From a virus: a stretch of 64,000 nucleotides of DNA. The DNA lies in the IMG/VR virus record IMGVR_UViG_3300017593_000402, positions 62,001-126,000 of that record; one strand, given 5' to 3'. Numbering within the stretch: the first letter of the stretch is position 1; the number at the start of each line of letters is the position of its first letter. Made by a program: the position numbers and the translations under genes. The notes under the pieces are model-generated. The model was not told the origin of the DNA and made no database searches. It saw nothing but the letters and a program-made list of their open reading frames with translations. Positions 22,240-62,278 of the stretch are shown piece after piece.

Positions 22240-22937
22240 AACCATTATTTCAAACAGAGTTGTTTTTAGGAGAAGTACAAACTACTCCTAAATTTGTGGT
22301 GGTGTCTAGAAAGACACCTCTTCCTCTTTTAATTAATGGCTTGCCTACCGATTCGGGTTCTCTCAAGGCTCAGGATTTAACAGGATTGCAATTTGTTGGA
22401 GAAGCACACGCTCCGCCTTTGTCTTTACTTTTTGTCTGTTTAGGTAGGCAATGGAAAGTAGAAGGTAATCGTCTTTACTATAGTCCTCCTTTTACTTCTC
22501 TAAACTTAGAAGGCGGAGAGCATTATGAGGATGACTCTACAAAGGCTATTACTTTTAATCATTTAATAAATGCTGTAAGCATAAGCCCTACTGGGTTGGT
22601 ATGCAAATGGGCTTTATATGTATCGACTACAGAAGCTGTTTATGAGATAAAATTTCAGGGTACTAAGCCTTTGATTCAGAGAATAATTAGTTCTCCAGCT
22701 TTAGGTTCTATAGGTGTAGGCGTTCTGGAGAGGCCTATGTCAGACAGCCTTCCTTCAGGAACCCAGATAGTTATTATTCCTACGCATAAAGGAATTTTTA
22801 TTGCTACTGACGGTGGAACACTGCCATTGACTGAGAGACACCCCAATGTATTGTCAAATTTTGATTATGTACATATTGCCTTTAGTATTAATGATTATGG
22901 GCAGTATTTAGTATTTTTAGATGCTTTGAAAAAGTGA
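22236..22937 (+). CDS. Virion protein, possibly connector or beta-propeller-like
   Basis: 233 residues, beta-rich. The segment ALYVSTTEAVYEIK and the later GTQIVIIPTHKGIFIATDGG resemble single blades of tail-hub propeller proteins that follow the adaptor in podoviruses. GTG start overlaps the upstream stop (GTGA). A perfect copy of the genome-wide palindrome covers the stop codon. Function is inferred from order only. Confidence 0.45.
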   Translation: MKPLFQTELFLGEVQTTPKFVVVSRKTPLPLLINGLPTDSGSLKAQDLTGLQFVGEAHAPPLSLLFVCLGRQWKVEGNRLYYSPPFTSLNLEGGEHYEDDSTKAITFNHLINAVSISPTGLVCKWALYVSTTEAVYEIKFQGTKPLIQRIISSPALGSIGVGVLERPMSDSLPSGTQIVIIPTHKGIFIATDGGTLPLTERHPNVLSNFDYVHIAFSINDYGQYLVFLDALKK

Positions 22938-22948
22938 AAACGTTTTCA
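22935..22948. repeat. Palindrome TGAAAACGTTTTCA, copy 1 (gene boundary)
   Basis: Perfect 14-bp palindrome overlapping the TGA stop of the upstream gene and lying just before the TGGAGG ribosome site of the next gene. First copy in the window; none was seen in the first 22.9 kb. Confidence 0.9.
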
Positions 22949-22965
22949 TTTTTGGAGGTGATTCA

Positions 22966-23769
22966 ATGGGAAATGTAAAGATTTCAACGGGAATGGCCAA
23001 GGCTTTGGCAGTAAGAGACAATTTAAAAAGCTTAATGACAGATTGTGTGCTTCAGATATTTAGTGGTTCTGTTCCTAATTCTGCTGATGACGCTGAAACT
23101 GGTAGTTTGTTGGTAACTATTACTACTGACGGCAATAGTTGGTCGGCCAGTGAAAGGCAAGTGATGAATTTTAGCATTACTGCAGTTGGTAACAGTGGAG
23201 ATACTCTAACAATTACTATCAGCCCTGTAATTCCTTCTGGTACTAATGAAGTTATTCAATATACTAAGTCTGATTCTGAATCTACAGTAAATGAAGTAGC
23301 CAAAGCGGTAGTCGATTTAATAAATGCTAATTCGGAATTAGTTGATGCCGTTGTAGGTTCAAATGGTGAAGTTATTTTAGTATCCAAATATGCAGGGGAT
23401 AGTTTTTCTGTGACTGCTGTGCCTAGTGGAAGTTTGACTGTAAGTGCTGTGAGTGAATTGGTAACAAATGTTAGAGGAAATGGTTTGCATTTTGAGTCTC
23501 CACAAAATGTGGACAATGGTATACTTCAAAAAACTGATGAGACTTGGAAAGGAACAGTGTCTGCGTCAGGCACTGCTTCTTATTTTAGATTAAAAGCTAT
23601 TACAGATGCTGGGGCACAGGATAGTTCTGGTGTTTATAAGAGAATTCAAGGTACAGTGGGGACTTTGTCTGATTCACCTTTGCAATTGTCTGGAAGTTCT
23701 ACACTAACTAAAGATACGACAATAACAATAGGCTCGTTTTCTATACAAATTCCTTTGGCTAATGCTTAA
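22966..23769 (+). CDS. Virion protein with a split tail-fibre domain
   Basis: 267 residues. An N-terminal piece (CVLQIFSGSVPNSADDAETG) and a C-terminal piece (TWKGTVSASGTASYFRLKAI, then RIQGTVGT) together match the C-terminal domain of the protein at 25501. Here they are separated by a beta-rich insertion of about 100 residues (VMNFSITAVGNSGDTLTITI ... VILVSKYAGDSFSVTAVPSG). TGGAGG precedes ATG 22966. Probably a fibre or head-surface protein; the inserted domain may be the variable ligand-binding part. Confidence 0.5.
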   Translation: MGNVKISTGMAKALAVRDNLKSLMTDCVLQIFSGSVPNSADDAETGSLLVTITTDGNSWSASERQVMNFSITAVGNSGDTLTITISPVIPSGTNEVIQYTKSDSESTVNEVAKAVVDLINANSELVDAVVGSNGEVILVSKYAGDSFSVTAVPSGSLTVSAVSELVTNVRGNGLHFESPQNVDNGILQKTDETWKGTVSASGTASYFRLKAITDAGAQDSSGVYKRIQGTVGTLSDSPLQLSGSSTLTKDTTITIGSFSIQIPLANA

Positions 23770-25489
23770 AAAGATTTTATTTGGCTCTAAAGCGTATGAA
23801 TATCTGCCTTTGGCTAGGCATTTATGGAATAAAATGCCTGAAGGCAAAAAGTCTTATAGGTTTTCTGGAGTGTATATTGATTTAGCCAAAGGCATTAATA
23901 ATTATATTCGTATACGAACGGTTGAAGCTAAAGAAGAAGCCATTTGTTTGTTTGCAACTTATAAATATGACATGTTTGCTAATTATTCTCTTTCAATTTG
24001 GAGAGTAGATTTGCATGGCAATTTAGATATTTTGTTGCTACCTGATACTAGCATTAGAAAGATTAAGAATGGACATCCTGGCGATGTGGCTTGTGGAAGA
24101 TTTAACCATGACAATCCTTCAGAGTTTATTCTCTGCATTCAGGATTCTTCTGTTTTTTATACTACTCTTAACTATGTTGAAGGAACATACAGGGACTGCC
24201 TTGAAGATGTACGAGGAGAAGCTTATCAATATTTTTTTAAGGTGTTATGTGATTTTAAGTCGATGACTATCAATTGTTCTCAGATGACTAAAATTAAATA
24301 TTATGATTATTATTCTCATTTTGGTTGTTATCCAGATTGTAATATTTATTACCCACCAGGTAGTTGGGAATTTAGGTGGAGTTCTGAGAAATGTGAGGGA
24401 GAGAAATCCTGGACTAGAGATTCTATTTTTGACATATTTGTTAATAACGATGGTATAAAAAGATTATTAAGTTCTACTTATTATATGTATCAATGGAACC
24501 CTGTTCAACAAAGATGGAACATACCTCAACAAGAAACTCCTCCGTCTGAATCTAGGCGTGGACATGAAGTTATTCGCAGATTTATCCATTACGAAGGTGG
24601 TAATCAAATTTCATTAGAAGACACAGACCGTTACTCTTATAGTTATAGGAAATGGGGTGGAGATTCTTATTATTTTGGGTGGAAGTTTATTGATCCTCAA
24701 AATCTTATTCAAGATGTATATAATTGTAAGGTTATTAATTCAAAAGCATTTGTTTATTTCAGAAATGATATTGGTGATTCTGCTCATGTACAAATTCGGG
24801 TAACTGATAGTAAATATGGAGACTCTGGTGTTCTTGCTAATTTGACAGTACCTTATGAACCAAAGTACTATGGTAGAGAACATGGAGGTAATTATCCAGT
24901 TTATCCGACTATCACTTTGCTTCGAGACGAAGGAATATCTCTTACTATTGATGCTCGGTTTGTGTCTTTGTTTTCGTGGGCTTTTCATGATTTTCTATCA
25001 TATAGTTTTTGGGTTGGTAGTTTTGCTGATTCTTTGGAAGATAATAATTCTCTATTTGAAAGCCATAATACATGGTTAACTGGCTTTCCTAATCCTTTTA
25101 ACAAAAAGGAATATTTTGGAATTTGGTATAGTGATGTTCCTGATTTTGGAAATGGCGGGCTGGGTTGGTCCGATCCTTATTTTTGGGATGGATTTTTTTG
25201 TATTCCTTTTTCTAGTTGGGATGCAAAAATCTCAGGATGGCATGAAATCAGACCTGTTAAAAAAGAAAACTTTGCTCCATCGCTTTTAAGTCCTTATTTT
25301 AGAAATACAATTATTGTTCCTACTCGTCCTTTTAAAGGTTTTTATGCCAAAGGGTCTGAACCTACGGCTGATTGGGATGCTAATATTTTGTTAGATGCAA
25401 CAGTTGTGCAATCAAAAAACGGAAAAGTATATGTAAACGGTGATATGAAAAAGAATTCAGTAGATAAAACTAAATTACAAATAAAATAG
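23762..25489 (+). CDS. Large aromatic-rich virion protein, unknown
   Basis: 575 residues, extremely rich in Tyr, Trp, Phe and Asp/Asn and with few long helices, as in carbohydrate-binding beta proteins. WRVDLHGNLDILL and DIFVNNDGIKRLL hint at repeated beta blades. No signal peptide or known catalytic motif. It overlaps the upstream gene by 8 bases and precedes a CBM-like protein, so a host-surface contact role is plausible. Confidence 0.4.
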   Translation: MLKKILFGSKAYEYLPLARHLWNKMPEGKKSYRFSGVYIDLAKGINNYIRIRTVEAKEEAICLFATYKYDMFANYSLSIWRVDLHGNLDILLLPDTSIRKIKNGHPGDVACGRFNHDNPSEFILCIQDSSVFYTTLNYVEGTYRDCLEDVRGEAYQYFFKVLCDFKSMTINCSQMTKIKYYDYYSHFGCYPDCNIYYPPGSWEFRWSSEKCEGEKSWTRDSIFDIFVNNDGIKRLLSSTYYMYQWNPVQQRWNIPQQETPPSESRRGHEVIRRFIHYEGGNQISLEDTDRYSYSYRKWGGDSYYFGWKFIDPQNLIQDVYNCKVINSKAFVYFRNDIGDSAHVQIRVTDSKYGDSGVLANLTVPYEPKYYGREHGGNYPVYPTITLLRDEGISLTIDARFVSLFSWAFHDFLSYSFWVGSFADSLEDNNSLFESHNTWLTGFPNPFNKKEYFGIWYSDVPDFGNGGLGWSDPYFWDGFFCIPFSSWDAKISGWHEIRPVKKENFAPSLLSPYFRNTIIVPTRPFKGFYAKGSEPTADWDANILLDATVVQSKNGKVYVNGDMKKNSVDKTKLQIK

Positions 25490-26352: not shown

Positions 26353-28682
26353 TGGGCGTTAAAGATTCAGTTATTTTTGGTGCTAGTAGCTACAAAACTT
26401 CTGGCGGTGCAACCTCTATGGGAGGTTTGTACTACAATGGGTATATTTATGTTTTAGGTTTTAATCCTGATGAAAACACTGTTTATTTAACTAAATCAGA
26501 TGTAGCAGGAAATAGGCTGTGGGAACTACCTTTCTATAGTTCTGAAACTTGGTATGCTGGTGATGGTTACGATGCAGGTGCTCCTCTTATTTGTAACGGC
26601 AGAATTTATTACAAAAATCAAATAAATAATACTATTTGTTGGGTACCTTTTTCTGATCCTATAATACCAAATCAGACTTCTACTAAAATATTGGATTGTG
26701 GTGGAGCTGAAACTGATTATCATTCAGTAGGGCACAAATATTGGTTTGGGAATTTGATTAAAGGAGAATATATTTTTCATATAGAGCGTGATGCGCATAC
26801 TATTTTAGTTACTGATTTAGATGGAAATTTTATTGGGAGATTTGGAGAATATGGAACCGATTTAGGACAATTTACGTATCCTAGTTGGGCTATGTATTAT
26901 CCTCCAGATCGTATTTATACTTGTGAGCTTTCTCCTGGGAGGAAGGTTACAGAATGGAGGGTAGAATCATGGCAAGACCCTTTTATTATAACACCTGTAG
27001 CTATAAGGTTAGATTTTAGAGAAAGCGGTCATGCTTACGATCGTTTAGGGGGATGTGCTTATAGAAATAATCAATTTTTTCTTTTTCATTTTTATCCTGC
27101 GTGGATGGGTTTAAGTTTCTATCGAATAGAAGAAGATTTTTCTTTAGTTTATGATTCATCAGTTAAAATAACTTACCCTGGAGTGTCTTATAACACTTAT
27201 TATGGTTTAGGTGTTTTTGCAGATGATACCAAAGTCGTGTGTTTTCCCAATCGAGGCGGAAGTGTTTGGGCTTTTGCTGGGACTATTACTGCTATAGAAA
27301 ACGGCTTGGACGAAGATTTTTCAGTTGACATTTATGCTATGATTTCTGGGGTAGGCATAGATGTCAATTTTTCTTTGGAAAGTGGTATTCCCCAGGCATT
27401 TGGAGATTTAAATTTTGAATTAACTGCCGAAGGATATATTCAACAGAATGCTTTTGATGAAAAGTTTTTCTTTTCTGCTGAGGCTTTATGTGGTCATTAT
27501 GATATGATCGCTGACTTCGGTTTTAATTTGGTTAGTGGGGAGTACGGTGTTAGAGATACATTTGGGTTTGATTTATTTGCTAGCCAGAATCATTTAGAAG
27601 AATTATTTGGTTTTGAACTTTATACTGAAACTTCTATAACTAAATTTTCTGAATTGGAAGAAGCTTTTGGTTTTGAATTATTAGGCAGTTCTCCCCATAG
27701 TGGAAAGTTATCTTTAGAACTTGAAACTTTTGAATTTCATGGTTTTGCTGCAACAGATTTAATCGCAGATTGTCAGTTAACACTCGAATCTCTAAATCTC
27801 TTTTCATATGAAGGTCTGACCAGTACGTTAATGCTTCCTTCTTTGGAAGTAAACGCTGCTGTTTTTGTACCAGCTATTGCTAGTGGCAGTCTTGTTTTGT
27901 CTGGACCGAGTATTACCTCTACTCTTTCTGTACCTATTTCTGCTTCTGCGGAACTGAAATTGGAAAATCTAGCAGCGACGGGCCTTGCTCTTATTCACGG
28001 ACAACTAAATGGAAATTTGATACTGCCTTTGCTGTCCACTCAAGGTATTATGTCAATGGGAGCATCTGCGGGGCAATTAGAGGTTGTTCTAAACAATGTT
28101 CAAATTCAAAGCTGGACCGCAGTAGTTCCTTCTGTAGCAGGTACTTTAACTATGCCTGCGGTAGATGTTTTTGCTTCGCAAACTATTGAGTTATATAGTA
28201 TTTCTGAACTTTATGACGGAACTTCAATAATCCATATCTCTAATGGGAGTTATAGCCAAGTAGATTTGTCATCCTTACCTGAGTTAGAGGAAGATTTGTT
28301 TGATATTCAGGGAATAGCTATAAATTTGCGAACTACAGCAATTAGTAAAATAGGTTATCCTTCTGACTATAACGTAATTGATCTTGGGTATTTAGATGTG
28401 CATAAAGGAGCAGTCAATGACTACTTAGTATTTTTCTTGTTTGGTGATATGCCTACTCAAGAAAATTTAGTAGGACGATTAATAGTAGGTGATTATTCTT
28501 ATGAAATAAAACAATGGATTAGCGAAGGAGAGTGGAGAGTAGTAGTTGGTAAGGGCATTACTAAGCGATTTTTTAGAGACCCAAGCAAACGCTATCAAAG
28601 AGTTATATTGCAATTGAAAAAAGATTTTGAGCTTAAAGGATTAAGTATTTTAGCTACTCCAAATCCCAGGAGATTACGTTAA
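26352..28682 (+). CDS. Beta-propeller-like virion protein with repeated FGFEL segments
   Basis: 776 residues. Residues 1-320 have propeller-like repeats, including an NHL-type blade (VTDLDGNFIGRFGEYGTDLG) and GGCAYRNNQFFLFHF. Residues about 325-450 hold irregular repeats of the type DxFGF(E/D)L. Residues 450-600 are rich in SxLxLxxLxxxG units resembling fibre shafts. The C-terminus is globular, ending in a basic segment. The start overlaps the upstream stop by one base. Probably a tail or head appendage; no enzyme motif recognised. Confidence 0.45.
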   Translation: MGVKDSVIFGASSYKTSGGATSMGGLYYNGYIYVLGFNPDENTVYLTKSDVAGNRLWELPFYSSETWYAGDGYDAGAPLICNGRIYYKNQINNTICWVPFSDPIIPNQTSTKILDCGGAETDYHSVGHKYWFGNLIKGEYIFHIERDAHTILVTDLDGNFIGRFGEYGTDLGQFTYPSWAMYYPPDRIYTCELSPGRKVTEWRVESWQDPFIITPVAIRLDFRESGHAYDRLGGCAYRNNQFFLFHFYPAWMGLSFYRIEEDFSLVYDSSVKITYPGVSYNTYYGLGVFADDTKVVCFPNRGGSVWAFAGTITAIENGLDEDFSVDIYAMISGVGIDVNFSLESGIPQAFGDLNFELTAEGYIQQNAFDEKFFFSAEALCGHYDMIADFGFNLVSGEYGVRDTFGFDLFASQNHLEELFGFELYTETSITKFSELEEAFGFELLGSSPHSGKLSLELETFEFHGFAATDLIADCQLTLESLNLFSYEGLTSTLMLPSLEVNAAVFVPAIASGSLVLSGPSITSTLSVPISASAELKLENLAATGLALIHGQLNGNLILPLLSTQGIMSMGASAGQLEVVLNNVQIQSWTAVVPSVAGTLTMPAVDVFASQTIELYSISELYDGTSIIHISNGSYSQVDLSSLPELEEDLFDIQGIAINLRTTAISKIGYPSDYNVIDLGYLDVHKGAVNDYLVFFLFGDMPTQENLVGRLIVGDYSYEIKQWISEGEWRVVVGKGITKRFFRDPSKRYQRVILQLKKDFELKGLSILATPNPRRLR

Positions 28683-30678: not shown

Positions 30679-32556
30679 ATGAGTTACGATGTAACCTCTC
30701 TTATTTCGGAAAGACTTGATGCTATTGAACACGGAGCGGCTACTACTACAGGAGCGATTAATAGTTTTTTGGATGAGTTTTTGCACAGAGGTGGAATAAG
30801 CATTAGTCTTGCTCCAATTAAAGATTTGCCTATTCAGGTTGAACCTATTCCTGACTTACCAGAGGAAATAAATGTTTCTGATTTAGATTATATTCCTACT
30901 GATTTAACTTTTCCTGATCATCCTATAGAAGAATTTGATTTAAACGAGCTTGTTTCTGAATTTGATTCTATTTCTACAGAAATAGGGCAGAATATAGACA
31001 AACCTCTTATTAGTTCTGTATCTCAAGCTTTAGATTCTATTTCTATGCCTGAAATTCCTGACGATTTAGATTCCATAACTGAACCTTCGTTAGAAGCAAT
31101 TTCTTTGCCTACGCTGCCTTCGTTTGATAAAGTGTCGGTTCCTTATCCAGAATCAATTACAACTGAGTTTTCTCCTGCGGATATACCTTCTCTTGCATTT
31201 ATTGAAACGCAACAGTTATTTAAAGAATTTGATTCTCTTTTACAAAAAGATTTGCAATTTTCTAGGTATGCACATGAATTGATAAGAGATAGACGCTCTC
31301 GAATTAAGGAGTTAATAAATTTTTACGAACGAGTTTTGAATATTCTCAAAACTACCAATCCTCTCCAAAGAGTTGAAAAAGTTATCAATGAAATAAATTT
31401 TATTGTAGATGAGGGAGAGAAAAGATTTATTAGTCCTATTTATGAGAGATACAGTTCTTTTGCTTCTAAAGATGTCAGAGATAAGTTAGAGAATTTGTAT
31501 TACCAGGCCAAAATTTTGAGTACGGGTCAATTGAAAGAAAAATACTTTAGTGAAAACGTTTTCACTGACCGTGATAAAGAAGATGAAATAGAATCTTTAG
31601 AACTTCAACTCAAGGAAGACTTAGATAAACACGAGACTGCTTATATAGATGCCTGCATTCAAGTTTGGAATGTTACTACTTCATATGTTCTTTTGTATGT
31701 AACCAAATTATTAATAGAATTTCAGCAAAGGCTTAATTATGAAAATATTTTGGTTCAGCTCCATGAGGACCTAAGTAAAGCAATTTTGAGATATTATGAT
31801 ATGTATAATGCTTTGCTCCAAGCTGAAAATACACAATTAGATAAGTTCAAAGCTGTTTTGAATAGAGCTAGTATGGAGTTAGATAAAATTCAATCAATTC
31901 TTGAAAAGAACAACGCCTATATAGAGGCTTATGCTGCTCAGGTTAGAGGGCTCCAAACTTTGGTTGATAAGTATAATGTAGATAGAAGACTATACCAAGC
32001 TCAGCTTGCTGAAAGATCATCTAGAGTAGATTTAGCTAGAAGCGTTTATCAAAACAATCAAGCTAAAGTTGATTTATATCAAAGAGCTGTAGCTCTGGTT
32101 AACAAGCTTTATGGTCTAAGACAAGAAAAAGTGAGAGATATTCTTAACAGAGGTAGAATTAAATTGGGGTTTGCTAAAGCTCAACAACAGTTAGACGTGA
32201 CAGTTTCTAAAGCTTTGGAAAACATTTATAATATTTATGGTGATATTATGGAAGTAGATATAGACAGATATAAAGCTGAATATAATAATATTTTGAATGA
32301 TAGTATTTTGGATTATAAAACTAAAGTTAGATTGAATGCGGAACGAGCTAATTTATTAAAACAAGCTTACTCTGTGTTTCTCCAAAAAGTGGGGCAAGAA
32401 GATAGGTATATTTTAACAAGTACTCGATTGATCAATGATATGGCAAACAGATTAGCTATGGAAGCTTTTAGGCCTTTGGCTTCTATGTCTTCTGGATTAT
32501 TGAGTGCTATTGATGCTGTTGTTAATGGGTTATACGAATTTGTAGCTGAGGGATAA
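30679..32556 (+). CDS. Coiled-coil virion protein, second of a similar pair
   Basis: 625 residues with the same arrangement as the gene before it: about 180 Pro/Asp/Ile-rich residues (LPEEINVSDLDYIPTDLTFP), then long helices (LENLYYQAKILSTGQLKEKY). A palindrome copy lies inside at 31551, encoding Ser-Glu-Asn-Val-Phe-Thr. Spacing of one base from both neighbours shows tight coupling. Possible ejection or internal head protein. Confidence 0.5.
   Translation: MSYDVTSLISERLDAIEHGAATTTGAINSFLDEFLHRGGISISLAPIKDLPIQVEPIPDLPEEINVSDLDYIPTDLTFPDHPIEEFDLNELVSEFDSISTEIGQNIDKPLISSVSQALDSISMPEIPDDLDSITEPSLEAISLPTLPSFDKVSVPYPESITTEFSPADIPSLAFIETQQLFKEFDSLLQKDLQFSRYAHELIRDRRSRIKELINFYERVLNILKTTNPLQRVEKVINEINFIVDEGEKRFISPIYERYSSFASKDVRDKLENLYYQAKILSTGQLKEKYFSENVFTDRDKEDEIESLELQLKEDLDKHETAYIDACIQVWNVTTSYVLLYVTKLLIEFQQRLNYENILVQLHEDLSKAILRYYDMYNALLQAENTQLDKFKAVLNRASMELDKIQSILEKNNAYIEAYAAQVRGLQTLVDKYNVDRRLYQAQLAERSSRVDLARSVYQNNQAKVDLYQRAVALVNKLYGLRQEKVRDILNRGRIKLGFAKAQQQLDVTVSKALENIYNIYGDIMEVDIDRYKAEYNNILNDSILDYKTKVRLNAERANLLKQAYSVFLQKVGQEDRYILTSTRLINDMANRLAMEAFRPLASMSSGLLSAIDAVVNGLYEFVAEG
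31551..31564. repeat. Palindrome TGAAAACGTTTTCA, copy 2 (in gene)
   Basis: Perfect copy flanked by G and C (16-bp palindrome), inside the coiled-coil gene, read as SENVFT. Confidence 0.9.
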
Positions 32557-46643: not shown

Positions 46644-46921
46644 TCTATTCCCCACTCCTTCAATTTTTCGTCCATCTTAGTTTCTACGAATTTAGCAGCT
46701 TTTTTGTACATTTTATTGATATTTTTCTTAGTACAAGGAACAGTCAACCCTATTCTAAATTTCAGCATTTCCATGTTTCCTACGTTTATTGTCCTGCCAA
46801 ATTCATAAGTAACATAAGCCATGTCTTCTGTAGCAGGAGTATCTGACGGAACTTGCTGAATATCATCGTTTTGTATTAACGTTGTCTGTACCGTTTTGTT
46901 TTTTGTAGATTTCTTTGACAT
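46640..46921 (-). CDS. Small protein between RecA and helicase, unknown
   Basis: 93 residues: a polar N-terminal 30 residues, then a strand-rich segment (AYVTYEFGRTINVGNMEML, RIGLTVPC) and a basic helix. It is translationally coupled to RecA. The YEFGRTINVGNME pattern resembles short phage proteins near recombination genes, but I cannot name the family. Confidence 0.45.
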   Translation of the reverse strand: MSKKSTKNKTVQTTLIQNDDIQQVPSDTPATEDMAYVTYEFGRTINVGNMEMLKFRIGLTVPCTKKNINKMYKKAAKFVETKMDEKLKEWGIE

Positions 46922-48450: not shown

Positions 48451-49177
48451 CGCCTTCCTCTTCTTCCTCAGATTCTGGCTCAACACCCTCTTCCTCCTCT
48501 TCTACGGTATTAAATATATCATCAATCTCTTCGCTTACATCTTCCTCTGATCCAACAATTGTCGTGTCAATACCTAGTGCTTCTAATTCTTCGTCCGTAG
48601 GAGGAGCAAGTACCGTTTCATAATCAAACGGTTTATTATCTTCAAATTTTCTCAAATCTATCTTGCCCAGAATTTCGAAATAATTACCGCAATTAGGGTC
48701 ATTAGCTGTATACCGCTTAACCCTTGCTACTAAACCCCTAAGTTTTTTGTGTTTCTTTTTGACATCCTCCAAGAAGTTTATTGCAGAGCCCTTAAGTGGA
48801 AGAAGTACTTTTCTATTCTTTACTACCTTGCCGTCACTGGTAGTGAATTTTCTGCCGTCGATTATGCTGTAATAAGCAGTATAAGTAGGCCTGTACCCTT
48901 CCTTGCAAACAGAGCATGGCGCAAAATCGTCTGTACAGGTTATGTAGTTACCCCACTTTCCTCCTATTTTTAGATTGTGTTCCTTGATATAAAAACCGTC
49001 GGAATCAAGAAAGACAATCTTTGCCTCTTCTCCTGGCTGTAGCCAAAAACGAGGAGCGTATTTTTCTTTCCTCTTTTCTGCTATCGCATCTAATTTCCTT
49101 TTTTCCTCAAAGCCTTCTCTGCCTTTTTTGAACCATGAAGAATTTTTTCCTGACTTGCTTGTTCTCTTTTTAGCCAT
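48425..49177 (-). CDS. Phage single-stranded DNA-binding protein
   Basis: 250 residues. A basic N-terminus (KKRTSKSGKNSSWFKKG), a core with aromatic strands and a zinc knuckle (CTDDFAPCSVCKEG), and a very acidic C-terminal tail (EEEEEGVEPESEEEEEGDDL), the architecture of gp32-like phage SSBs. The acidic tail usually recruits helicase, polymerase and recombinase partners, whose genes surround it. AGGAGG precedes ATG 49177. Confidence 0.75.
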   Translation of the reverse strand: MAKKRTSKSGKNSSWFKKGREGFEEKRKLDAIAEKRKEKYAPRFWLQPGEEAKIVFLDSDGFYIKEHNLKIGGKWGNYITCTDDFAPCSVCKEGYRPTYTAYYSIIDGRKFTTSDGKVVKNRKVLLPLKGSAINFLEDVKKKHKKLRGLVARVKRYTANDPNCGNYFEILGKIDLRKFEDNKPFDYETVLAPPTDEELEALGIDTTIVGSEEDVSEEIDDIFNTVEEEEEGVEPESEEEEEGDDLEELFS

Positions 49178-49179
49178 TT

Positions 49180-50121
49180 CTAAACCTCCTTGATAGTTGA
49201 TAAAACTTTTTTAATTAGCTTTTTTTCGACTGCTTCTGCTGGGTCATTGCAGCCTTTGTAATTAGTAACCTCGTAGAACTTTATATAATCTTTTAGTTTT
49301 GTATAAACCCTTTCCTTTGCTTTCTCACCTCCTTTGTCGTTGTCAAAGAATAAAATCATTGTTTTGGCTTCACACTTTCGAAGCGTTTTTAGTTGAGCAT
49401 TGCTTATTTCTGCCCCACCGCTAGCCCACACATTTGCTATTCCGTAGTCAAATAGAGCAAGCAAATTTCTCTCTCCTTCTACTAAGATTAAGGGCTTGGA
49501 AGGGTCAATAGAACGATGGTAACCAAACCACACTCCGAGACTGTGGGGCATCGTGCCTCCCAGCTCTTTATAAAATCTGTACTTCATATTTTCTTCAATG
49601 TATTTATCTTTGCCCAAGTATCGTCCTTTTAAGGCTACTACTCTGTTGTTATAGTACCGAATCGGTATTACAAGTCTTCTCTCGCTGGCATCATAGCGTA
49701 GTGAAAACACGTGAATTGTCCTCATGGAGAACATATTTCCTTTGTATAAGGGAAAAGGAATGACGTTGATATACTTTGGCTGGCGAGGCGAAATACCACA
49801 AAATAGTCTTGGAATAAATTCATAAGACGACAGCATTGCTTTTAACGTTGGGTCTTTTACACCAGTTATCTTCTTCCAAATTCTGGGTAAATCACGGATG
49901 TGCCCTTTAGTACCACAGGCAAAGCAATTGAACACGCCGTTGTTAGTGTTTATTCCAAAAGAAGGATGCTCATCCACTCCGTGTTCATGTGTCCACCTAG
50001 CAAAAGGGCAGGAAGCTCTTATCCAAACAGAGGGTTTGGATGTATCGTATTTAATCTTCGTGCAACCCAGATACTTCAAGACTTCCAGGAATAAGTTCAC
50101 GTTTGCTGGCACATTTCCCAT
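49180..50121 (-). CDS. DnaG-type primase
   Basis: About 313 residues. The N-terminal zinc domain follows the CHC2 pattern: CPFARWTHEHG, HPSFGI, FNCFACGTKGHI. The C-terminal TOPRIM fold has PLILVEGERNLLAL (catalytic Glu) and MILFFDNDKGGEKA (D-x-D). It is compact compared with bacterial DnaG and lacks a fused helicase; the DnaB-like helicase is encoded two genes upstream. Lays RNA primers at the phage fork. Confidence 0.85.
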   Translation of the reverse strand: MGNVPANVNLFLEVLKYLGCTKIKYDTSKPSVWIRASCPFARWTHEHGVDEHPSFGINTNNGVFNCFACGTKGHIRDLPRIWKKITGVKDPTLKAMLSSYEFIPRLFCGISPRQPKYINVIPFPLYKGNMFSMRTIHVFSLRYDASERRLVIPIRYYNNRVVALKGRYLGKDKYIEENMKYRFYKELGGTMPHSLGVWFGYHRSIDPSKPLILVEGERNLLALFDYGIANVWASGGAEISNAQLKTLRKCEAKTMILFFDNDKGGEKAKERVYTKLKDYIKFYEVTNYKGCNDPAEAVEKKLIKKVLSTIKEV

Positions 50122-50362
50122 AGTTTGCAATCTCCTTTCTTGTTGGCTCTATGTACCATTCTCGACAATAGTCCATGTACCTCTTCCAATCTTCTTCGGT
50201 AAAAAACTTGTCTGGCTCACCTACTAATGCAAATACAATAAGCGTTTCTAGGATGTACGGACTAACGTCCATAACCCTATCGCCTAAAACAAGAAGAAAA
50301 GCTTTCAGCATTCTACGCTGTTTTTTGTTTAGTTTGACTCTTAAGGTTTTCTTTATTTTCAT
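50051..50362 (-). CDS. Small protein between primase and helicase, unknown
   Basis: 103 residues, basic at the N-terminus (MKIKKTLRVKLNKKQRRMLK), hydrophobic-helical in the middle and with DWKRYMDYCREWYIEPTRKE later. Overlaps the primase by 71 bases and the helicase stop by 4. A loader or adaptor at the fork is possible by position only. Confidence 0.45.
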   Translation of the reverse strand: MKIKKTLRVKLNKKQRRMLKAFLLVLGDRVMDVSPYILETLIVFALVGEPDKFFTEEDWKRYMDYCREWYIEPTRKEIANYGKCASKRELIPGSLEVSGLHED

Positions 50363-51564
50363 TCTAACGGTGACTCCGCTTCAACTTCTGAAAAATCCAT
50401 TCGTTCCCAATCCCAGTGGATTTGGAAGATACAATTTACGCCTTCTCTGTTTGCTATAGTTTCGACTGTTTTTACATTTGCTCCTTCTTCGCCATATATG
50501 CTCATGGCTACGGAGCAAAGCTGTGACAAAGCGTCAGTTAAATGTATGTGTTCAAGTCCACCAGACTTTTTCTCCTTTGGAGCTTCTCTGTTGAATTGGA
50601 ACGAAACTACCAAAGGTATGTTAAAATTGAGTGCCATTAGTTTTAATTCTTGTGCGATTTCACTGGCAACCTCCCACTTTGCTTTATATTTGCTGTTAAT
50701 TTTTATCAAATACCCTCCATCTATAAACACTAAATTAGGTTCGTGTTCATCTATTAACACAAATATGTCATCAATCGTGTGACGGAATTTTCCGTCAACA
50801 TAGATTAGAGGAGGCGCATTGGTCTTTGATTCCTCAATAGCTTTTTCAGCAAAGGTTGAAATCTCACCTTTCTTTACAGCCTCAAATTTGAGCTTGTGCG
50901 CCATAGCAATAATTCTTTTTGCTTGTTGCATTAATCCCATTTCCATTGAGATTAACATAGCTTTATAACCAGCTTTGCTAGCTTGATAGGCCGAGTAGAC
51001 CATTGACATGCTTTTGCCCTTCTTGGGCCTCGCTAAAATTAAATTTAAGTCTCCAGGCTGATAGCCTTCTATAGCCTCATCGAGGCTTTTCCATCCAGTC
51101 GGAATTCCAAATGGTAGGCCAATCTTAGCCCTTCTTTCTCTTACGTACCCCAAAAACACATCGACTAATTCGTCGAACATATAGACGCCATCATCCGTCT
51201 TTTTCATAGACCTGTATCGGTCTGTAATTTCTTTCATTATTCGTAAAGCACTATCCAGGTCGTGTTTGACCAACGCTCCTTCAATTTGTTTTGAGGCTTC
51301 TACTAAATCCTCCTTAAATTTCCTTTCGATACACCTTTCAAGTAGCAAGTCAATTGGTGTATCTGGTATAAGAAGAGCTTCCTCATCGAGCAGTTCTGCT
51401 AAAGTTGAAAGTCGAGGTAATTCGTTGTATTTGTCTACATATTTTTTGATTATATGGTAAGCTTCTCTCTCGTCTTCAATGAAAACGTTTTCACTCAGCT
51501 TTTTGAACAGCTTTATGTTGTCTTTCTCTACTATCGCTGTGAGCAGTTTTAAACCAACTGACAT
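50359..51564 (-). CDS. DnaB-like replicative helicase
   Basis: 401 residues. An N-terminal helical domain, then GIPTGWKSLDEAIEGYQPGD, Walker A ARPKKGKSM, ISMEM, a LVFIDGGYLI Walker B segment and VVSFQFNREA. These are the DnaB/T4 gp41-like RecA-fold helicase motifs. In the gene order it follows two small proteins and precedes the primase. A palindrome copy lies in the 5' part (51480). Confidence 0.8.
   Translation of the reverse strand: MSVGLKLLTAIVEKDNIKLFKKLSENVFIEDEREAYHIIKKYVDKYNELPRLSTLAELLDEEALLIPDTPIDLLLERCIERKFKEDLVEASKQIEGALVKHDLDSALRIMKEITDRYRSMKKTDDGVYMFDELVDVFLGYVRERRAKIGLPFGIPTGWKSLDEAIEGYQPGDLNLILARPKKGKSMSMVYSAYQASKAGYKAMLISMEMGLMQQAKRIIAMAHKLKFEAVKKGEISTFAEKAIEESKTNAPPLIYVDGKFRHTIDDIFVLIDEHEPNLVFIDGGYLIKINSKYKAKWEVASEIAQELKLMALNFNIPLVVSFQFNREAPKEKKSGGLEHIHLTDALSQLCSVAMSIYGEEGANVKTVETIANREGVNCIFQIHWDWERMDFSEVEAESPLE
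51480..51493. repeat. Palindrome TGAAAACGTTTTCA, copy 5 (in gene)
   Basis: Perfect copy inside the DnaB-like gene, read as SENVFI on the minus strand. Confidence 0.9.
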
Positions 51565-52791: not shown

Positions 52792-53013
52792 CTAGCTCTC
52801 CTTTCCATCTAGTAGGAGATACCACCTAGCTTCTCCATACCCGTAGAAATTTTTGTCGGGACACTCGTCCAAATCTGCTATGTATTTTGGTTCAAAATTA
52901 AATGTGCATATCCTCCAGGGAGTCCTGTAGAATATGCACAGTCTTTCTCCTACTTCACAATACTTTATCCACTTGTCATTTCTTATTGGAAAACCAGGTA
53001 TTAATTCTTTCAT
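52792..53013 (-). CDS. Small protein after the AAA+ gene, unknown
   Basis: 73 residues (IPGFPIRNDKWIKYCEVGER, YRTPWRICTFNFEPKY, CPDKNFYGYGEARWYLLLDG). Beta-rich with two scattered cysteines. It overlaps the AAA+ gene by 4 bases and is the last gene of the outer leftward group. Not recognised. Confidence 0.45.
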   Translation of the reverse strand: MKELIPGFPIRNDKWIKYCEVGERLCIFYRTPWRICTFNFEPKYIADLDECPDKNFYGYGEARWYLLLDGKES

Positions 53014-54536
53014 GTTAATAATACTTTTGTGGATTTGCTTACTTTCGGAACTTGGTTAGCAATCCTTGCTCTGGTAGTTCCCCACTTTCTCAGTTCTTCA
53101 ATTTCTTCTTTTCTGCTAATTGATAGAGGAACAGTAACGTCGCAAATTTCCAAAATATCTTGGGTAGTTACGTCTCTTTCTTCATAAAAAGCTTTAACTT
53201 TTGATTGCTTCAACACGTTCTCTATTTCAGCTCCTGTAAATCCTTCTGTTACTTTTACAATCTTGTCGAGTGAAAACGTTTTCACTTCCAGTCTGAGTTT
53301 TTTCATGTGTATTTTAATTATTTCTTCTCTTTCTATTTTCTTTGGTAAATCAACAAACCACAGCTCATCGATTCTACCTTTTCGTTCTAGCTCTGGAGGA
53401 AGAGCATGGACATTATTTACTGTAAAAGCAAAGAAAATCGGAGCTGTAGTTTCCTGCATAAAATAAAGGAACGAACCAATTACTCGTGCTGTAGTTCCAG
53501 CGTCTGTAAAATCTGAAGAACCCATTCCACTAAAAGCTTTTTCTGCTTCGTCTATCATCACCACTACAGGAGCTTGTGCTTCTATTTCCTTCAATACTCT
53601 CCTTGTATTCTCTTCAGTTTCACCAAGTCTTGGACCAAACAGACTTCCCACATCTACTCTAAGCAAGGGAACATTAAAAAGATTTGCCAGTATCTTACAG
53701 CTCAATGTTTTGCCTGTACCAGGAACACCAGCTAACAACATTCCTTTAGGGACTGGGACTTTTTCTGCTATTGCCTTAGCTCGATTGTTAAATACTTTTG
53801 CTGCCATTACTGCCCAATGCCTAAAAGCGTGGAGGCCTCCTAAATCATCTATTGTGTCTTCAGGACTTAAGTATTCTATCATTCCATTTTTCCTTACTTT
53901 TTCAGCCTTCAATTTTTGAAGTAAGTTTAAGTCTAATTTGCCTTTGCCTTGCACTAATGCTGTTTTAAAAGCCAGGTTAGCTTCGTGCATAGTAAGGCCT
54001 GTTAAATATTCCGCTGCCTGCTTGCACTTGGCTTTACTGATTTTTACTTTGTTGTTCTTTACGATGTCTTCTACAATTTTTAATAGCTCTTCTTGAGTAG
54101 GAAAAGGAATGTCTATCATTCCACAATATTGAGAAATTTCTTCTGGCAGATTGAAATTGCCTTGCATTATGCAAATAGTGAAAGAGTCTGAGCTGGCTAT
54201 CTTCCTGAGATATGTAGTAATTAGCGGTAAATTAAATCTTTCAGTTAAGTACCAATGAAAATTGGTTAGCAAATATATGTGTGGTTCGTTATCGGCCGCA
54301 ATATGCCTTAAAATATCCATATGGTTAGAGCATTCTCCGTTTACTCCGTCTATGGAGTTCCAAATCTTTAAGGAATACCCCTTTTCTGCTAAATCGGGAG
54401 GAACTACTTTTGATTTTTTGAGTTCCTCGTTCAATTCTTTTACTGTATTTTTTACTATTTCTGTAATTCGTTCTGTTTCGATTGAATTAATTAAAATGAT
54501 TTTATACCGACTTTTTATCATTGTTTTTAACATCAT
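53010..54536 (-). CDS. Ycf46-like AAA+ ATPase
   Basis: 508 residues. N-terminal 230 residues form a degenerate ATPase-like domain (SRYKIILINSIETERI, IYLLTNFHWYL, LPEEISQYCGMIDIPFPTQE, LTGLTMHEANLAF). A linker, NGMIEYLSPEDTIDDLGGL, leads to the active AAA+ module: GMLLAGVPGTGKT, RVDVGSLFGPRLGETEEN, VVVMIDEAEKAFSG, TTARVIGSFLYFMQE, LPPELERKGRIDELWF. Order and motifs match the Ycf46 family of cyanobacteria and plastids. The start ATG 54536 overlaps the stop of the Cys-rich frame (ATGA). A palindrome copy lies at 53271. Confidence 0.8.
   Translation of the reverse strand: MMLKTMIKSRYKIILINSIETERITEIVKNTVKELNEELKKSKVVPPDLAEKGYSLKIWNSIDGVNGECSNHMDILRHIAADNEPHIYLLTNFHWYLTERFNLPLITTYLRKIASSDSFTICIMQGNFNLPEEISQYCGMIDIPFPTQEELLKIVEDIVKNNKVKISKAKCKQAAEYLTGLTMHEANLAFKTALVQGKGKLDLNLLQKLKAEKVRKNGMIEYLSPEDTIDDLGGLHAFRHWAVMAAKVFNNRAKAIAEKVPVPKGMLLAGVPGTGKTLSCKILANLFNVPLLRVDVGSLFGPRLGETEENTRRVLKEIEAQAPVVVMIDEAEKAFSGMGSSDFTDAGTTARVIGSFLYFMQETTAPIFFAFTVNNVHALPPELERKGRIDELWFVDLPKKIEREEIIKIHMKKLRLEVKTFSLDKIVKVTEGFTGAEIENVLKQSKVKAFYEERDVTTQDILEICDVTVPLSISRKEEIEELRKWGTTRARIANQVPKVSKSTKVLLT
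53271..53284. repeat. Palindrome TGAAAACGTTTTCA, copy 6 (in gene)
   Basis: Perfect copy with G and C flanks inside the AAA+ gene, read as VKTFSL on the minus strand. Confidence 0.9.
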
Positions 54537-54724
54537 CCGCACCATCCTTTCTTACAATTTTTGCAATTTTTTATGGGGCACTGCTCACATTCGTCAAGCC
54601 AAATTTGGAGCTGTGCCCCTCTTACAACTATGATGATATTTTTATTGTTGTCTCTTGGATTAACGGCTTCTCTTCTAGAATCTCTCCTAGTTTGTTCGCC
54701 ACTTCTTCGATTGGTTCCTTGCAT
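54533..54724 (-). CDS. Cys-rich small protein (start uncertain)
   Basis: The last 30 codons encode RGAQLQIWLDECEQCPIKNC followed by KNCKKGWCG: six cysteines in a possible metal or iron-sulfur pattern. The stop overlaps the AAA+ start (ATGA), which supports real translation. The only in-frame ATG (54724) lies inside the DUF2997 gene and would add an Arg-rich stretch, so translation may instead begin at a rare codon near 54630 or by a -1 shift at the end of the DUF2997 frame. Confidence 0.42.
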   Translation of the reverse strand: MQGTNRRSGEQTRRDSRREAVNPRDNNKNIIIVVRGAQLQIWLDECEQCPIKNCKNCKKGWCG

Positions 54725-55128: not shown

Positions 55129-55389
55129 TTAGATGCGGATAATGATTTCATTTCCTACCTCCTCTTTTATTCCACCAGTTTTTTCTACTAAATAATCTAC
55201 AATTAAATCAGTAACTTTGCTAACATCCATAACGTCATACTTTAACTTTTTATCTTGAATTTTTATCGGTCTAAATAGCTCTGTGTTAGTGAAAACGTTT
55301 TCACTTGTTTCTTTATAACCTTTTTTTATTGCGATTTCCCTGAACAAATCAGGTTCTACTTTTAATTCTACTTCAACTATTCTGCTCAT
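55129..55389 (-). CDS. Small protein, possibly DUF1257 (Ycf35)-like
   Basis: 86 residues from ATG 55389, chosen for its AAGGAG spacing. MSRIVEVELKVEPDLFREIA, KGYKE and a late YDVMDVSKVTDLIVDYL resemble the shape of DUF1257 proteins, which begin with a similar strand and helix and end with a Tyr-Asp strand. Identity is weak and rests partly on the neighbouring DUF2997 and Ycf46-like genes. A palindrome copy lies inside at 55290. Confidence 0.4.
   Translation of the reverse strand: MSRIVEVELKVEPDLFREIAIKKGYKETSENVFTNTELFRPIKIQDKKLKYDVMDVSKVTDLIVDYLVEKTGGIKEEVGNEIIIRI
55290..55303. repeat. Palindrome TGAAAACGTTTTCA, copy 7 (in gene)
   Basis: Perfect copy with G and C flanks, read as SENVFT on the minus strand. 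Confidence 0.9.
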
Positions 55390-55400: not shown

Positions 55401-55844
55401 TTACCACCAAATAGTTTGTTTAGTTTTTGTTATTTTTTCTAACATTTCATTCTTTCCTTGAAGAAATTTTCCAGATGTTTTTATCCACAGACTTGGAGCA
55501 TCTTTTACTCTCACTAAAATTTCTGGGACATTATCTAATTCTATGAAGCCAAAATGGGAGTGAGTGGGCCTCCCCCACTCCATGATTTTTGTGTTTAATA
55601 CTATCAATACTGAGTCTGGAATGTCTAATTTACAAACTACCCGTACAATATACGGGTAGGAGGAGCAATCTTTTTTGTATACCATCCATTCGTGAGGAAA
55701 TAAATAACTAACATGACGATAGACCCACTTCACTCCTTTCTGCTTTATTTCTTTAAGGCTGGTGTGGTAAAGAAAGCCCACACTCAGCCGAATGGATGAC
55801 CTGGCAGAGGTAGATAATGTCCCTCTGCTGAATTGTAATTCCAT
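55401..55844 (-). CDS. Unknown protein of the outer leftward operon
   Basis: 147 residues, beta-rich with many aromatic residues (VKWVYRHVSYLFPHEWMVYK, YPYIVRVVCKLDIPDSVLIV, HSHFGFIELDNVPEILVRVK). No motif recognised. The start touches the upstream stop. Confidence 0.42.
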   Translation of the reverse strand: MELQFSRGTLSTSARSSIRLSVGFLYHTSLKEIKQKGVKWVYRHVSYLFPHEWMVYKKDCSSYPYIVRVVCKLDIPDSVLIVLNTKIMEWGRPTHSHFGFIELDNVPEILVRVKDAPSLWIKTSGKFLQGKNEMLEKITKTKQTIWW

Positions 55845-56476
55845 TATTCCTCCTCATCATCGTCAAACTCTACTTCTCCCCATTCTTCTTCCTCTATAGG
55901 TTCATCTGACATCAAGAATTCTTGACAGATATATTCGAGGGCGGCTCCGTTGCTGTCTGTTCCAACCATTTGTTTAGCTTTCTCGATTGCTTGGTTGACA
56001 ACATCGTATTGGTCTTCAATTAAATTGAATGTTATTTTAGTGATATTAATTTCCTTTTTAGGTGCAATGTTTTTTCTAAGTTGTTTTACAGTATCTTTTA
56101 CTTCTTGGAATGTCATATTTGGAGCTTTCTTAAGTAGTTTTTCTATTTCTTCTTTGTTATCTAACAGGCTTATTTCTTTGAATTTGGTCCAGGAAACATT
56201 TAAAATCACCTCCTTTGGAATATTGTATTTAGAAATAGTTTCTCCCATTTGGGCATACCAAAGAGCAATCCTGTACTCCAGACTCAATTCTCCTTCTACG
56301 TAATCTTTATAACTCTCATAGCCCCAGGATGCGTATTGCTCTTTTTCTTTGACTTCATAGAGCTTGAGATATAAGTCATACCTGCTTTCGTCGATATTCC
56401 TGGCGAGAGTTTTGATTTCCTCTCTAATGCTGACCTTGGCTTTTTTTTCCATTTTTACGCTTTTTTTCTTTGCCAT
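55844..56476 (-). CDS. Helical protein with acidic tail, possible DNA-binding
   Basis: About 210 residues from ATG 56476 (GAGGAGG upstream). A basic N-terminus (AKKKSVKMEKKAKVSIREEI) is followed by a region like YASWGYESYKDYVEGELSLE with helix-turn-helix-like shape, a central NVSWTKFKEISLLDNKEEIE and a very acidic end (EEEEWGEVEFDDDEEE). It resembles DUF3102-type phage proteins, but this is tentative. Possible early regulator. Confidence 0.4.
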   Translation of the reverse strand: MAKKKSVKMEKKAKVSIREEIKTLARNIDESRYDLYLKLYEVKEKEQYASWGYESYKDYVEGELSLEYRIALWYAQMGETISKYNIPKEVILNVSWTKFKEISLLDNKEEIEKLLKKAPNMTFQEVKDTVKQLRKNIAPKKEINITKITFNLIEDQYDVVNQAIEKAKQMVGTDSNGAALEYICQEFLMSDEPIEEEEWGEVEFDDDEEE

Positions 56477-57167: not shown

Positions 57168-57605
57168 ATGAAAACGTTTTCACTTTTGCCATCGACTGAG
57201 CCCAAACAATTTTCTGATGATGAATTGGATGGATTTGATCTCCTTCCTCAGTCTTGGAAAACATTTGCTATCGAATATTTAAAACATCGACGGCCTATTC
57301 GAGCAGCGAAAATTGCTGGATTTAAAGACCCCAAAAAAATGGCGAAACGCCTGCTCCAGAATGAAAAAGTAAAGCGTTATATGGAATATGAACAAGAAAG
57401 AATGAAAGAGCTAGCTCGAATAGACAGAGAATATGTTGTTCTCAAATTAAAAGAAATAGCAGAAAAAGGAGCAAAAACGAGCGACCGACTCCAAGCTTTG
57501 AATTTGCTTGCCAGGATCGAAGGCTTACTCCAAGACAAAGCCGCCCAACAGCCTCCTGTTCTTCTTTTTAACTTCCAGGGCTTAAAGGTAGAGAGCGAAG
57601 ACTAG
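57168..57605 (+). CDS. Terminase small subunit
   Basis: 145 residues. SWKTFAIEYLKHRRPIRAAK, AGFKDPKKMAKRLLQNEKVK and RYMEY form the helix-turn-helix and arm of Terminase_2-type small subunits; ARIDREYVVLKLKEIAEKG and DRLQALNLLARIEGLL match the C-terminal helix. It binds packaging sites and recruits the large subunit, which is not in the window. The start codon lies within a palindrome copy, which fixes the first residues as MKTFSL. Confidence 0.8.
   Translation: MKTFSLLPSTEPKQFSDDELDGFDLLPQSWKTFAIEYLKHRRPIRAAKIAGFKDPKKMAKRLLQNEKVKRYMEYEQERMKELARIDREYVVLKLKEIAEKGAKTSDRLQALNLLARIEGLLQDKAAQQPPVLLFNFQGLKVESED
57169..57182. repeat. Palindrome TGAAAACGTTTTCA, copy 8 (start codon)
   Basis: Perfect copy beginning at the second base of the small-terminase ATG, 31 bases after the -10 of its promoter; an operator-like position. 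Confidence 0.9.
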
Positions 57606-60704: not shown

Positions 60705-61187
60705 ATGGACGACAGACCTACAAAAAGCAGGTTATACCAGTCCTTGCCGCATGGCAGCGGCATTGACCTAGACTGGTACATTGAGGAAACCCGTAAATCT
60801 TTTAGGTGCTACAACGGGTATCACTGTATGGACGAAAACGGGTTTTACGAGGGGTGGGCCGATTTTGTCTTGATAGTACCAAAAGCTAACCCGTTGGAGT
60901 TTAAGCTTCAATTCCGTGGACGCAGGAGCCAATATTTAGCCAGGAAGCATATGTTAAGAGATTATTTGGAGGACGCATTCCTATTTGCGTTAACAAGCGA
61001 ATTCCCACGGTATGTCAGCGATATACCAAAACACTATGTTCTGGTGTACAATAGTCAAGATATAAGGGCGTTGGGAGTCAATCCTTGGGACTACCCACTG
61101 ATATTCTACGATCCCGAAAGCGAAAGAATTTATGGGATTAAAAACAACGTGGCTTATTTGAATTTACCTGTAGTAAGGGTAAAATGA
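60705..61187 (+). CDS. Early-region protein, unknown
   Basis: 160 residues. KSRLYQSLPHGSGIDLDWYI, YNGYHCMDENGFYEGWADFV, HMLRDYLEDAFLFALTSEFP and YVLVYNSQDIRALGVNPWDY. Compact alpha/beta with many aromatics; no known motif. AAAGGGGG precedes ATG 60705. Expressed from promoter copy 2. Confidence 0.5.
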   Translation: MDDRPTKSRLYQSLPHGSGIDLDWYIEETRKSFRCYNGYHCMDENGFYEGWADFVLIVPKANPLEFKLQFRGRRSQYLARKHMLRDYLEDAFLFALTSEFPRYVSDIPKHYVLVYNSQDIRALGVNPWDYPLIFYDPESERIYGIKNNVAYLNLPVVRVK

Positions 61188-61441
61188 AAACGTTTTCACT
61201 AGACTGGGAGGAATTAGATATGGCACGATTTCAGGGAATAGTTGAAACTGATAGGGCAAAGAGGACTAGCCGACTAGCGAACAAGTGGGGGACGGTTCAA
61301 CTAAATACATGGGATAAGGGCGTCCTTGTGGAGGCCCAATACAACGACACTACAAAGCAGATAATTTTTTCAGTATGGGAAACTGGGGGGAGCAATTACC
61401 CCAGGCCCAAGAAACTGTTAGCTAGAATAGAGGAAGGCTAG
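61184..61441 (+). CDS. Small protein starting in a palindrome, unknown
   Basis: 85 residues beginning MKTFSLDWEELDMARFQGIV. The ATG overlaps the previous stop (ATGA) and is part of a palindrome copy, as in the small-terminase gene. The remainder is strand-rich and basic (KWGTVQLNTWDKGVLVEAQY). There is no ribosome site of its own, so translation depends on the upstream gene; an ATG at 61220 with GGGAGG upstream is an alternative start. Confidence 0.5.
   Translation: MKTFSLDWEELDMARFQGIVETDRAKRTSRLANKWGTVQLNTWDKGVLVEAQYNDTTKQIIFSVWETGGSNYPRPKKLLARIEEG
61185..61198. repeat. Palindrome TGAAAACGTTTTCA, copy 9 (start codon)
   Basis: Perfect copy over the start of the 61184 gene and the stop of the upstream gene. 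Confidence 0.9.
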
Positions 61442-61477: not shown

Positions 61478-61489
61478 TCCATGTCACTA

Positions 61490-61900: not shown

Positions 61901-61909
61901 CCTGCCTTG

Positions 61910-61947
61910 ACTCCCTAGGGTATCGGACACCTAGGGAGTGTTTTTTT
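61910..61947 (+). terminator. Rho-independent terminator before the iteron gap
   Basis: Stem ACTCCCTAGG / CCTAGGGAGT with a ten-base loop, then GTTTTTTT. It isolates the following 440-base non-coding region from upstream transcription. Confidence 0.88.
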
Positions 61948-61983
61948 AAGGGCGTGGGCGATTTTTATCAACCCTCCCATACG

Positions 61984-62278
61984 AAATGTAAAAAGTAAAA
62001 GTGAAAATGTTTTCACATACAAAATGTAAAAAATGAAAGTGAAAATATTTTCACGCACAAAATAAAAATGAAAACGTTTTCACTCGCTCAGTGGGAGTGT
62101 TTCCAGAAAAAATAAAGTGAGAATATTTTAGGTTGCGAGTGAAAACGTTTTCACTCATAAAAAATAAATTAGAAGGTGAGGTTGTTCCAGGAATTTATTA
62201 AGTGAAAATATTTTCACTGTTGAAGATGTTTTTAGTTTTTGAGAGTGTGGTTATCCACAAAAGTGAAAATATTTTCAC
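61984..62278. repeat. Iteron-like cluster of the palindrome
   Basis: Within the gene-free gap 61901-62386 lie GTGAAAATGTTTTCAC (62001-62016), GTGAAAATATTTTCAC (62039-62054, 62202-62217, 62263-62278), and the perfect form at 62069-62082 and 62140-62153. A degenerate copy is at about 62117-62131. The first two sit in direct repeats of about 38 bases (61984-62020 and 62022-62058). No open frame of note is present. The arrangement resembles origin iterons, a partition site or an operator array. Confidence 0.85.
62251..62259 (+). promoter_or_regulatory. DnaA-box consensus TTATCCACA
   Basis: A perfect match to the bacterial DnaA-box consensus, four bases upstream of the last palindrome in the iteron cluster. 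Supports, but does not prove, a replication origin. Confidence 0.55.

Follow-up and report, generated by a model that had tools for sequence, protein, structure and literature searches.

Dispersed arrays of protein-binding sites are already known, among them the stoperators of mycobacteriophages, the SPbeta repeated element (SPBRE), and the sites bound by Noc and KorB. Mycobacteriophage L5 carries more than 20 phage-specific stoperators across its genome, often in short intergenic spaces, each an asymmetric 13-mer that is bound by a monomer and oriented with transcription (PMC9283540). SPBRE is bound by MrpR, a protein with a tyrosine-recombinase fold, in approximately ten peaks in promoter regions (PMC10516654), and the start-associated sequences (SAS) of cluster K phages are asymmetric, lie in essentially one orientation, and are confined to the non-structural half of the genome (PMC3203893). 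The ParB-family protein KorB of plasmid RK2 binds palindromic plasmid operators (OB), silences distant genes, and works together with KorA as a CTP clamp (PMC11790492). The element described here is a 14-bp palindrome, TGAAAACGTTTTCA, that recurs in a 64,000-nucleotide stretch of viral DNA (positions 62,001 to 126,000 of IMG/VR record IMGVR_UViG_3300017593_000402; hereafter the window, numbered from its first letter); its occurrence and that of related palindromes among phages follows that of phrog_17202, a protein family of unknown function.

A dispersed palindrome and its companion protein family

All 11 perfect copies that an earlier note had listed in the window were found at their positions, as were four variants near 62 kb, one with a TG center and three with a TA center. 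The excess of the element over chance was likewise borne out: 16 matches at up to two mismatches occur in the real sequence vs. 0.74 in shuffled sequence, and no sites occur in an unrelated phage fused into the same contig. The whole contig of 137,043 bp (G000) holds 14 perfect copies, all within 84,935-134,339, and just one further site at one mismatch or fewer. When the center is left free (TGAAAANNTTTTCA), 18 sites are observed vs. 0.06 expected under a first-order Markov model, and no other palindrome of the form N6-NN-N6 exceeds two copies in the window phage.

Relatives retrieved by terminase and motif searches are 60-70 kb in size, and most are complete circles. We call them and the window phage hot-spring phages, a shorthand for a presumed origin suggested by the IMG sample numbers. 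Each relative carries 6-25 copies of the palindrome (14 in G003, 18 in G004, 25 in G006, 25 in G019, and 6 in G022), with sites at conserved positions. Of the outcomes that the earlier note had named as refuting, neither an equal density in shuffled sequence nor a lack of sites at conserved positions in related phages was thus observed. Direct terminal repeats, a sign of complete circles, measure 123 bp in G004 (61,085 bp) and G006 (60,121 bp) and 127 bp in G019 and G022. Across relatives the 6-bp arms, TGAAAA and TTTTCA, are near-invariant and variation is confined to the central two bases, where CG is commonest, followed by TG/CA, TA or TT/AG; at the two bases that flank the 14-mer, A and G are favored less strongly.

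A dispersed TG[A/C]AA-N4-TT[T/G]CA-type palindrome was present in 17 of 17 distinct genomes tested that encode phrog_17202 and in none of nine genomes lacking it (Fisher P 3e-7, shared ancestry ignored), the near-identical contigs G002, G007, and G021 having been excluded from the count. Homologs of phrog_17202 are encoded by phage isolates of Vibrio, Rhizobium, Rhodobacter, Stenotrophomonas, Aeromonas, and Pseudomonas, and the motif in genomes with this family takes the form TG[A/C]AA-N4-TT[T/G]CA, with a near variant in Vibrio phages LV6 and SIO-2. Scanning the isolates for any repeated palindrome revealed a TGCAAN-NN-NTTGCA-type or close palindrome in PG28, LV6, TM16, RcZahn, L338C, HJ05, and DLP_3; that of Vibrio phage PG28 is TGCAATTAATTGCA, with ~35 sites, and DLP_3 carries 34 sites at one mismatch or fewer. 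A further test set comprised phages carrying a single-stranded DNA (ssDNA)-binding-like protein of the replication module described below. BLAST found no phrog_17202 in RcDurkin and JP1, a profile search found diverged copies in both, and both have the palindrome; SM1 has a distant copy together with the palindrome, and SIO-2 has 24 palindromes at one mismatch or fewer. The palindrome of Agrobacterium phage JP1, TGCAAACGTTTGCA, is one symmetric base off the window motif and shows the same center preference (ACGT > ACAT > ATAT). The palindromes follow the presence of one protein family, and these phages therefore seem to carry their own genome-wide set of binding sites.

The seven siphophages compared and the hot-spring phages have no structural family in common among those tested (terminase, portal, and capsid). 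They do share a polymerase, nuclease, RecA, 93-amino-acid protein, helicase, ssDNA-binding-like protein, primase, DnaB, AAA+ protein, and phrog_17202. Judged by gene content, the palindrome tracks this replication module rather than the structural genes. Bacteroides phage BS162P1, which has most module families and lacks both phrog_17202 and the AAA+ protein, shows no motif above chance. Rhizobium phage RHph_TM3_14A, a capsid and terminase relative without phrog_17202, carries the unrelated 18-bp palindrome GTTACCTNNNNAGGTAAC, which is itself dispersed (41 sites at up to two mismatches). A search with an 18-mer also turned up a jumbo-phage-like contig (G008). Across 20 kb of it (119073-139088), the palindrome TGAAARCGYTTTCA in most cases precedes gene starts by ~70-90 nt and is followed by an AT-rich element, resembling a phage-specific promoter element; this is a different element, and the contig was rejected as a member of the same system.

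After sites less than 300 bp apart were merged, spacing was more even than random in ten phages (PG28, LV6, HJ05, DLP_3, RcZahn, RcDurkin, JP1, SM1, SIO-2, and G019; P values of <0.0004 to 0.02). Sites in phages of this family are usually 2-4 kb apart, and in PG28 the mean is 2.4 kb with a coefficient of variation of 0.37 vs. 0.83. Evenness was not significant in TM16, G003, G004, G006, G022, or the window phage, and was borderline in L338C.

The window copy of phrog_17202 is a protein of 210 amino acids encoded on the minus strand at 55844-56476 (profile match E 1.9e-22; proteins of PG28, TM16, G019, G022, and G004 also match) and predicted to be all-helical. Of the families common to all hot-spring genomes, it is the leading candidate for binding DNA in a site-specific manner. 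Foldseek searches with its predicted model repeatedly returned ParB/Noc entries as weak matches, including the Noc-DNA complex 7ol9, with 70 columns aligned at 2.3 Å. The statement in the earlier note that the window holds no recognizable DNA-binding gene to match the sites is thus superseded by a candidate. Two other proteins were considered as general binders and set aside: a helix-turn-helix protein with an NrdR-like zinc ribbon, encoded beside the site at G000:128401, was not found in G019, G022, or the siphophages, and for a ParB_N protein adjoining terL in PG28 and TM16 we found no counterpart in LV6, in HJ05, or in any of the hot-spring phages.

Sites, neighboring genes and contig structure in the window

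The contig joins two different phages and is either a chimeric record or a recombinant. A 1,249-bp segment at its end (G000:135795-137043) is 90% identical to contig positions 77,547-78,792 (window 15547-16792), which accounts for the joining of the two. The second phage occupies the first ~77.5 kb of the contig (window 1 to ~15.5 kb) and has no palindrome sites; its polymerase, recombinase, ribonucleotide reductase, ligase, DnaB, portal, capsid, and tail genes lie in the first ~76 kb. The site-bearing phage genome is therefore ~58 kb in length, beginning near window 16-17 kb. The absence of sites from the first 22.9 kb, remarked on previously, is in part an artefact of this junction. No close prophage of the window-phage lineage was found in bacterial genomes, only distant terminases.

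The palindromes had been described as lying mostly inside genes and in both operon directions. The second statement holds, with sites seen on transcripts of both directions; the first needs qualification, as 10 of 18 sites in the window phage lie at least partly outside coding sequence vs. 1.45 expected, the others lying in genes. Non-coding sites are typically located just before a ribosome-binding site, many of them 27-43 nt ahead of the start codon, and the TGA of the palindrome often doubles as the stop codon of the preceding gene. At 22935-22948 this TGA ends the upstream gene, with the next start codon 31 nt further, and at 61185-61198 it terminates one gene 35 nt ahead of the next start, an arrangement kept in G004. 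The site at 57169-57182 overlaps the start codon (ATG) of the gene for the small terminase subunit and is kept in G004, with a counterpart in G006 that lies 40 nt upstream of that gene.

In unrelated proteins, in-gene sites are read in two frames, as S-E-N-V-F-T or (V/M)-K-T-F-S-L. The copy at 31551-31564 is in the SENVFT frame, at a codon position kept in G004, G006, and G003, and the copy at 43546-43559, at nt +148 of the DNA polymerase gene, is kept in the same three genomes. Other in-gene copies are located within the gene for a 2590-amino-acid protein (36559-36572, kept in G004), at nt +71 of the DnaB gene (51480-51493, position kept in G004 and G006), within the AAA+ gene (53271-53284, codon kept in G004 and G003 with a TG/CA center), and within a gene for 86 amino acids (55290-55303, kept in G004). 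Codon position is identical across four genomes in the polymerase gene and in a structural-region gene, and synonymous positions at conserved in-gene sites are fixed apart from center changes. The polymerase gene of G006 has an extra site, where the other genomes encode similar residues without a site. Because in-gene sites keep their codon position, use fixed codons, and occur in two frames, the constraint acts at the level of DNA. The portal gene (G000:130666-133710) carries an intein/LAGLIDADG insertion, and the palindrome at G000:133038, in sequence that the portals of G006 and G003 lack, seems to fall within that insertion.

A dense cluster occupies 62002-62277, with CG centers at 62069 and 62140, a TG center at 62002, and TA centers at 62040, 62203, and 62264; in G004 the cluster recurs with five sites at 28193-28328. 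The earlier note had also described sites drawing closer towards 62 kb: the dense cluster (61,990-62,280) and its recurrence are real, the gradient is not established, and with the cluster merged the spacing in the window phage does not differ significantly from random. A sigma70-like promoter on the plus strand (62312-62340; TTGACA, 17 bp, TATATT) lies 34 bp downstream of the cluster, and a similar one is present in G004. Between its -35 and -10 boxes is an inverted repeat, TAATATAA-N7-TTATATTA (62319-62341), similar in G004, that may be a further operator. Interpretation of the cluster as a DnaA-dependent origin was dropped, as it holds a single DnaA box (62251) and none was found in G004. 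Another repeat, GTAGGTTTGCAA, occurs four times near gene ends, always in the same orientation (57607, 60637, 61443, and 61526).

The replication module lies on the minus strand. In every genome where it was tested for, the AAA+ ATPase (phrog_8638, 53010-54545) occurs together with the candidate binder, and the remaining shared genes (41350-51564) encode the polymerase, a PD-(D/E)XK nuclease, RecA, a helicase, the ssDNA-binding-like protein, primase, and DnaB. The polymerase (41350-43707) is a DNA polymerase A (PolA) with a uracil-DNA-glycosylase (UDG) domain fused at its N-terminus.

Proposed genome organization and competing explanations

An even, symmetric, genome-wide array tied to one DNA-binding-like protein suggests a role in genome organization. 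The explanation to which we give slightly better than even credence is that phrog_17202 is a phage-encoded ParB/Noc-like protein that would bind the palindromes across the genome and so organize the phage chromosome. Probably one dimer would occupy each palindrome, at roughly even distances of ~2-4 kb across the whole chromosome in most phages of the family, and the bound array would most likely serve to bridge, compact, or partition phage DNA that is replicating or in a plasmid state. It would do so within a module for replication and recombination that also comprises PolA, RecA, DnaB, primase, the ssDNA-binding-like protein, and the AAA+ ATPase. The dispersed-site class proposed in the earlier note (ParB/parS, stoperator, or nucleoid-organizing) is in its broad sense the best fit, its mycobacteriophage stoperator member being unsupported since the sites are symmetric.

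Several observations weigh against chromosome organization by phrog_17202. The fold matches are weak (probability 0.41-0.57, E 2-7) and come from a model with a pLDDT of 62.5; a Pfam scan of the phrog_17202 members scanned found neither a ParB domain nor the ParB_N CTPase domain, and a sequence-profile search of the PDB with the candidate found no relevant solved structure. The putative recognition helix differs among G000, G019, and G022 despite an identical 14-mer. The AAA+ protein co-occurs with the sites as closely as the candidate does, which is therefore not separable from this partner. Nor do the 17 genomes represent independent lineages, and regularity in the window phage is only a trend (P 0.08).

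The main rival, possible though rather unlikely in our estimation, is that phrog_17202 or another phage protein on the sites acts in the manner of a stoperator or operator system, blocking transcription initiation and elongation throughout the genome and keeping a plasmid-like prophage silent. It is the main rival because lysogeny is documented for two relatives, the temperate Stenotrophomonas phages DLP3 and DLP5, DLP5 having been isolated as a phagemid and DLP3, which bears sites, forming stable lysogens thought to be of phagemid type (PMC7326821). Silencing would also account for the many window-phage sites that overlap a start or stop codon or closely precede a ribosome-binding site, although this placement may merely reflect the sparing of proteins, and for a cluster upstream of a strong promoter-like sequence at 62 kb. 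Even spacing and sites deep in genes suit operators poorly, however; symmetric sites are incompatible with the orientation dependence of L5 stoperators, and neither an integrase nor a classical repressor was recognized among the genes examined.

That the palindromes mark sites of replication restart, primase or helicase loading, or recombination by the module enzymes is improbable. Such a role would fit their even spacing, their co-inheritance with PolA, DnaB, primase, RecA, and the ssDNA-binding-like protein, and the location of the candidate gene after a Holliday-junction resolvase gene in PG28 and TM16, but BS162P1 has the same replication enzymology without sites, and no origin or skew pattern is linked to individual sites.

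We consider it very improbable that a LacI/CcpA-type host regulator or a host nucleoid protein binds the sites. TGAAAACGTTTTCA fits the textbook catabolite-response consensus, and the 14-mer is unchanged between hot-spring phages with candidates just 23-28% identical to the window protein. The near-invariant arms, however, are unlike a graded host regulon, and phages of one host genus differ: TM16 and L338C of Rhizobium have TGCAA arms and RHph_TM3_14A a different palindrome, while Vibrio phage VA-RY-3 has none. The LacI/CcpA-type operator of the earlier note was rejected as the principal explanation, since it is the phage protein and not the host that the motif tracks, from Vibrio, Rhizobium, and Rhodobacter to Stenotrophomonas, Aeromonas, Pseudomonas, and Agrobacterium phages. 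An mRNA hairpin ahead of ribosome-binding sites, suggested by the copies shortly before start codons, is scarcely credible, given the many copies inside genes far from starts and variation at the center only, the arms changing so little that they offer no compensatory pairs.

Comparison with described systems

In a literature search that covered a minority of subscription journals, no array was found described for the window motif, for the siphophage motifs, or for dispersed phage palindromes, nor were the even lattice, its presence in genes, the link to phrog_17202, or transfer with a replication module; the window motif itself appeared in a single Streptococcus paper, unrelated to phages. 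It is conceivable, if still doubtful, that phrog_17202 represents a new class of phage chromosome organizers that use an even, genome-wide palindrome lattice, as a phage equivalent of nucleoid-organizing systems, and reside on a replication module moving between unrelated virion types. If the explanation favored above is right, phages evolve evenly spaced binding arrays that cover the whole chromosome and extend into genes, where the price is fixed amino acids; this would add a new layer to phage genome organization, and a simple sequence signature could be used to find such phages and predict binding specificity. In any case, a phage protein family to which no function has been assigned is linked with a precise DNA motif, and this across many hosts. 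Among the motif phages are several cultured laboratory isolates (of Vibrio, Rhizobium, Rhodobacter, Stenotrophomonas, and Pseudomonas), and a role in organization, partition, or prophage silencing is therefore testable at once.

Like the L5 stoperators bound by the cluster A repressor, the palindromes are numerous, phage-specific, distributed genome-wide, and often in short intergenic spaces; unlike them, all are perfect or center-varied palindromes that also occur within genes and are evenly spaced in many phages. SPBRE is likewise a phage-specific repeat to which a phage protein binds, as we infer for the palindrome, but the candidate here is a helical protein of ~210 amino acids with no recombinase matches, and its sites are genome-wide. 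SAS and extended SAS (ESAS), the latter with an upstream inverted repeat, share with the palindrome a location near start codons, whereas the palindromes are found in structural as well as replication genes, within coding sequence, and on transcripts running either way. KorB-OB differs in site sequence and in having a CTPase domain and KorA, neither of which was identified in the phages analyzed here. Noc with its binding sites (NBS) and ParB-parS offer the closest parallel, in that a palindromic, strictly conserved site is recognized by one protein, here a presumed candidate, with dispersed copies in the case of Noc. The phage array departs from both in its site sequence, in a candidate without a detected ParB_N CTPase domain, in its even 2-4 kb spacing on a phage genome, and in its link to a phage replication module.

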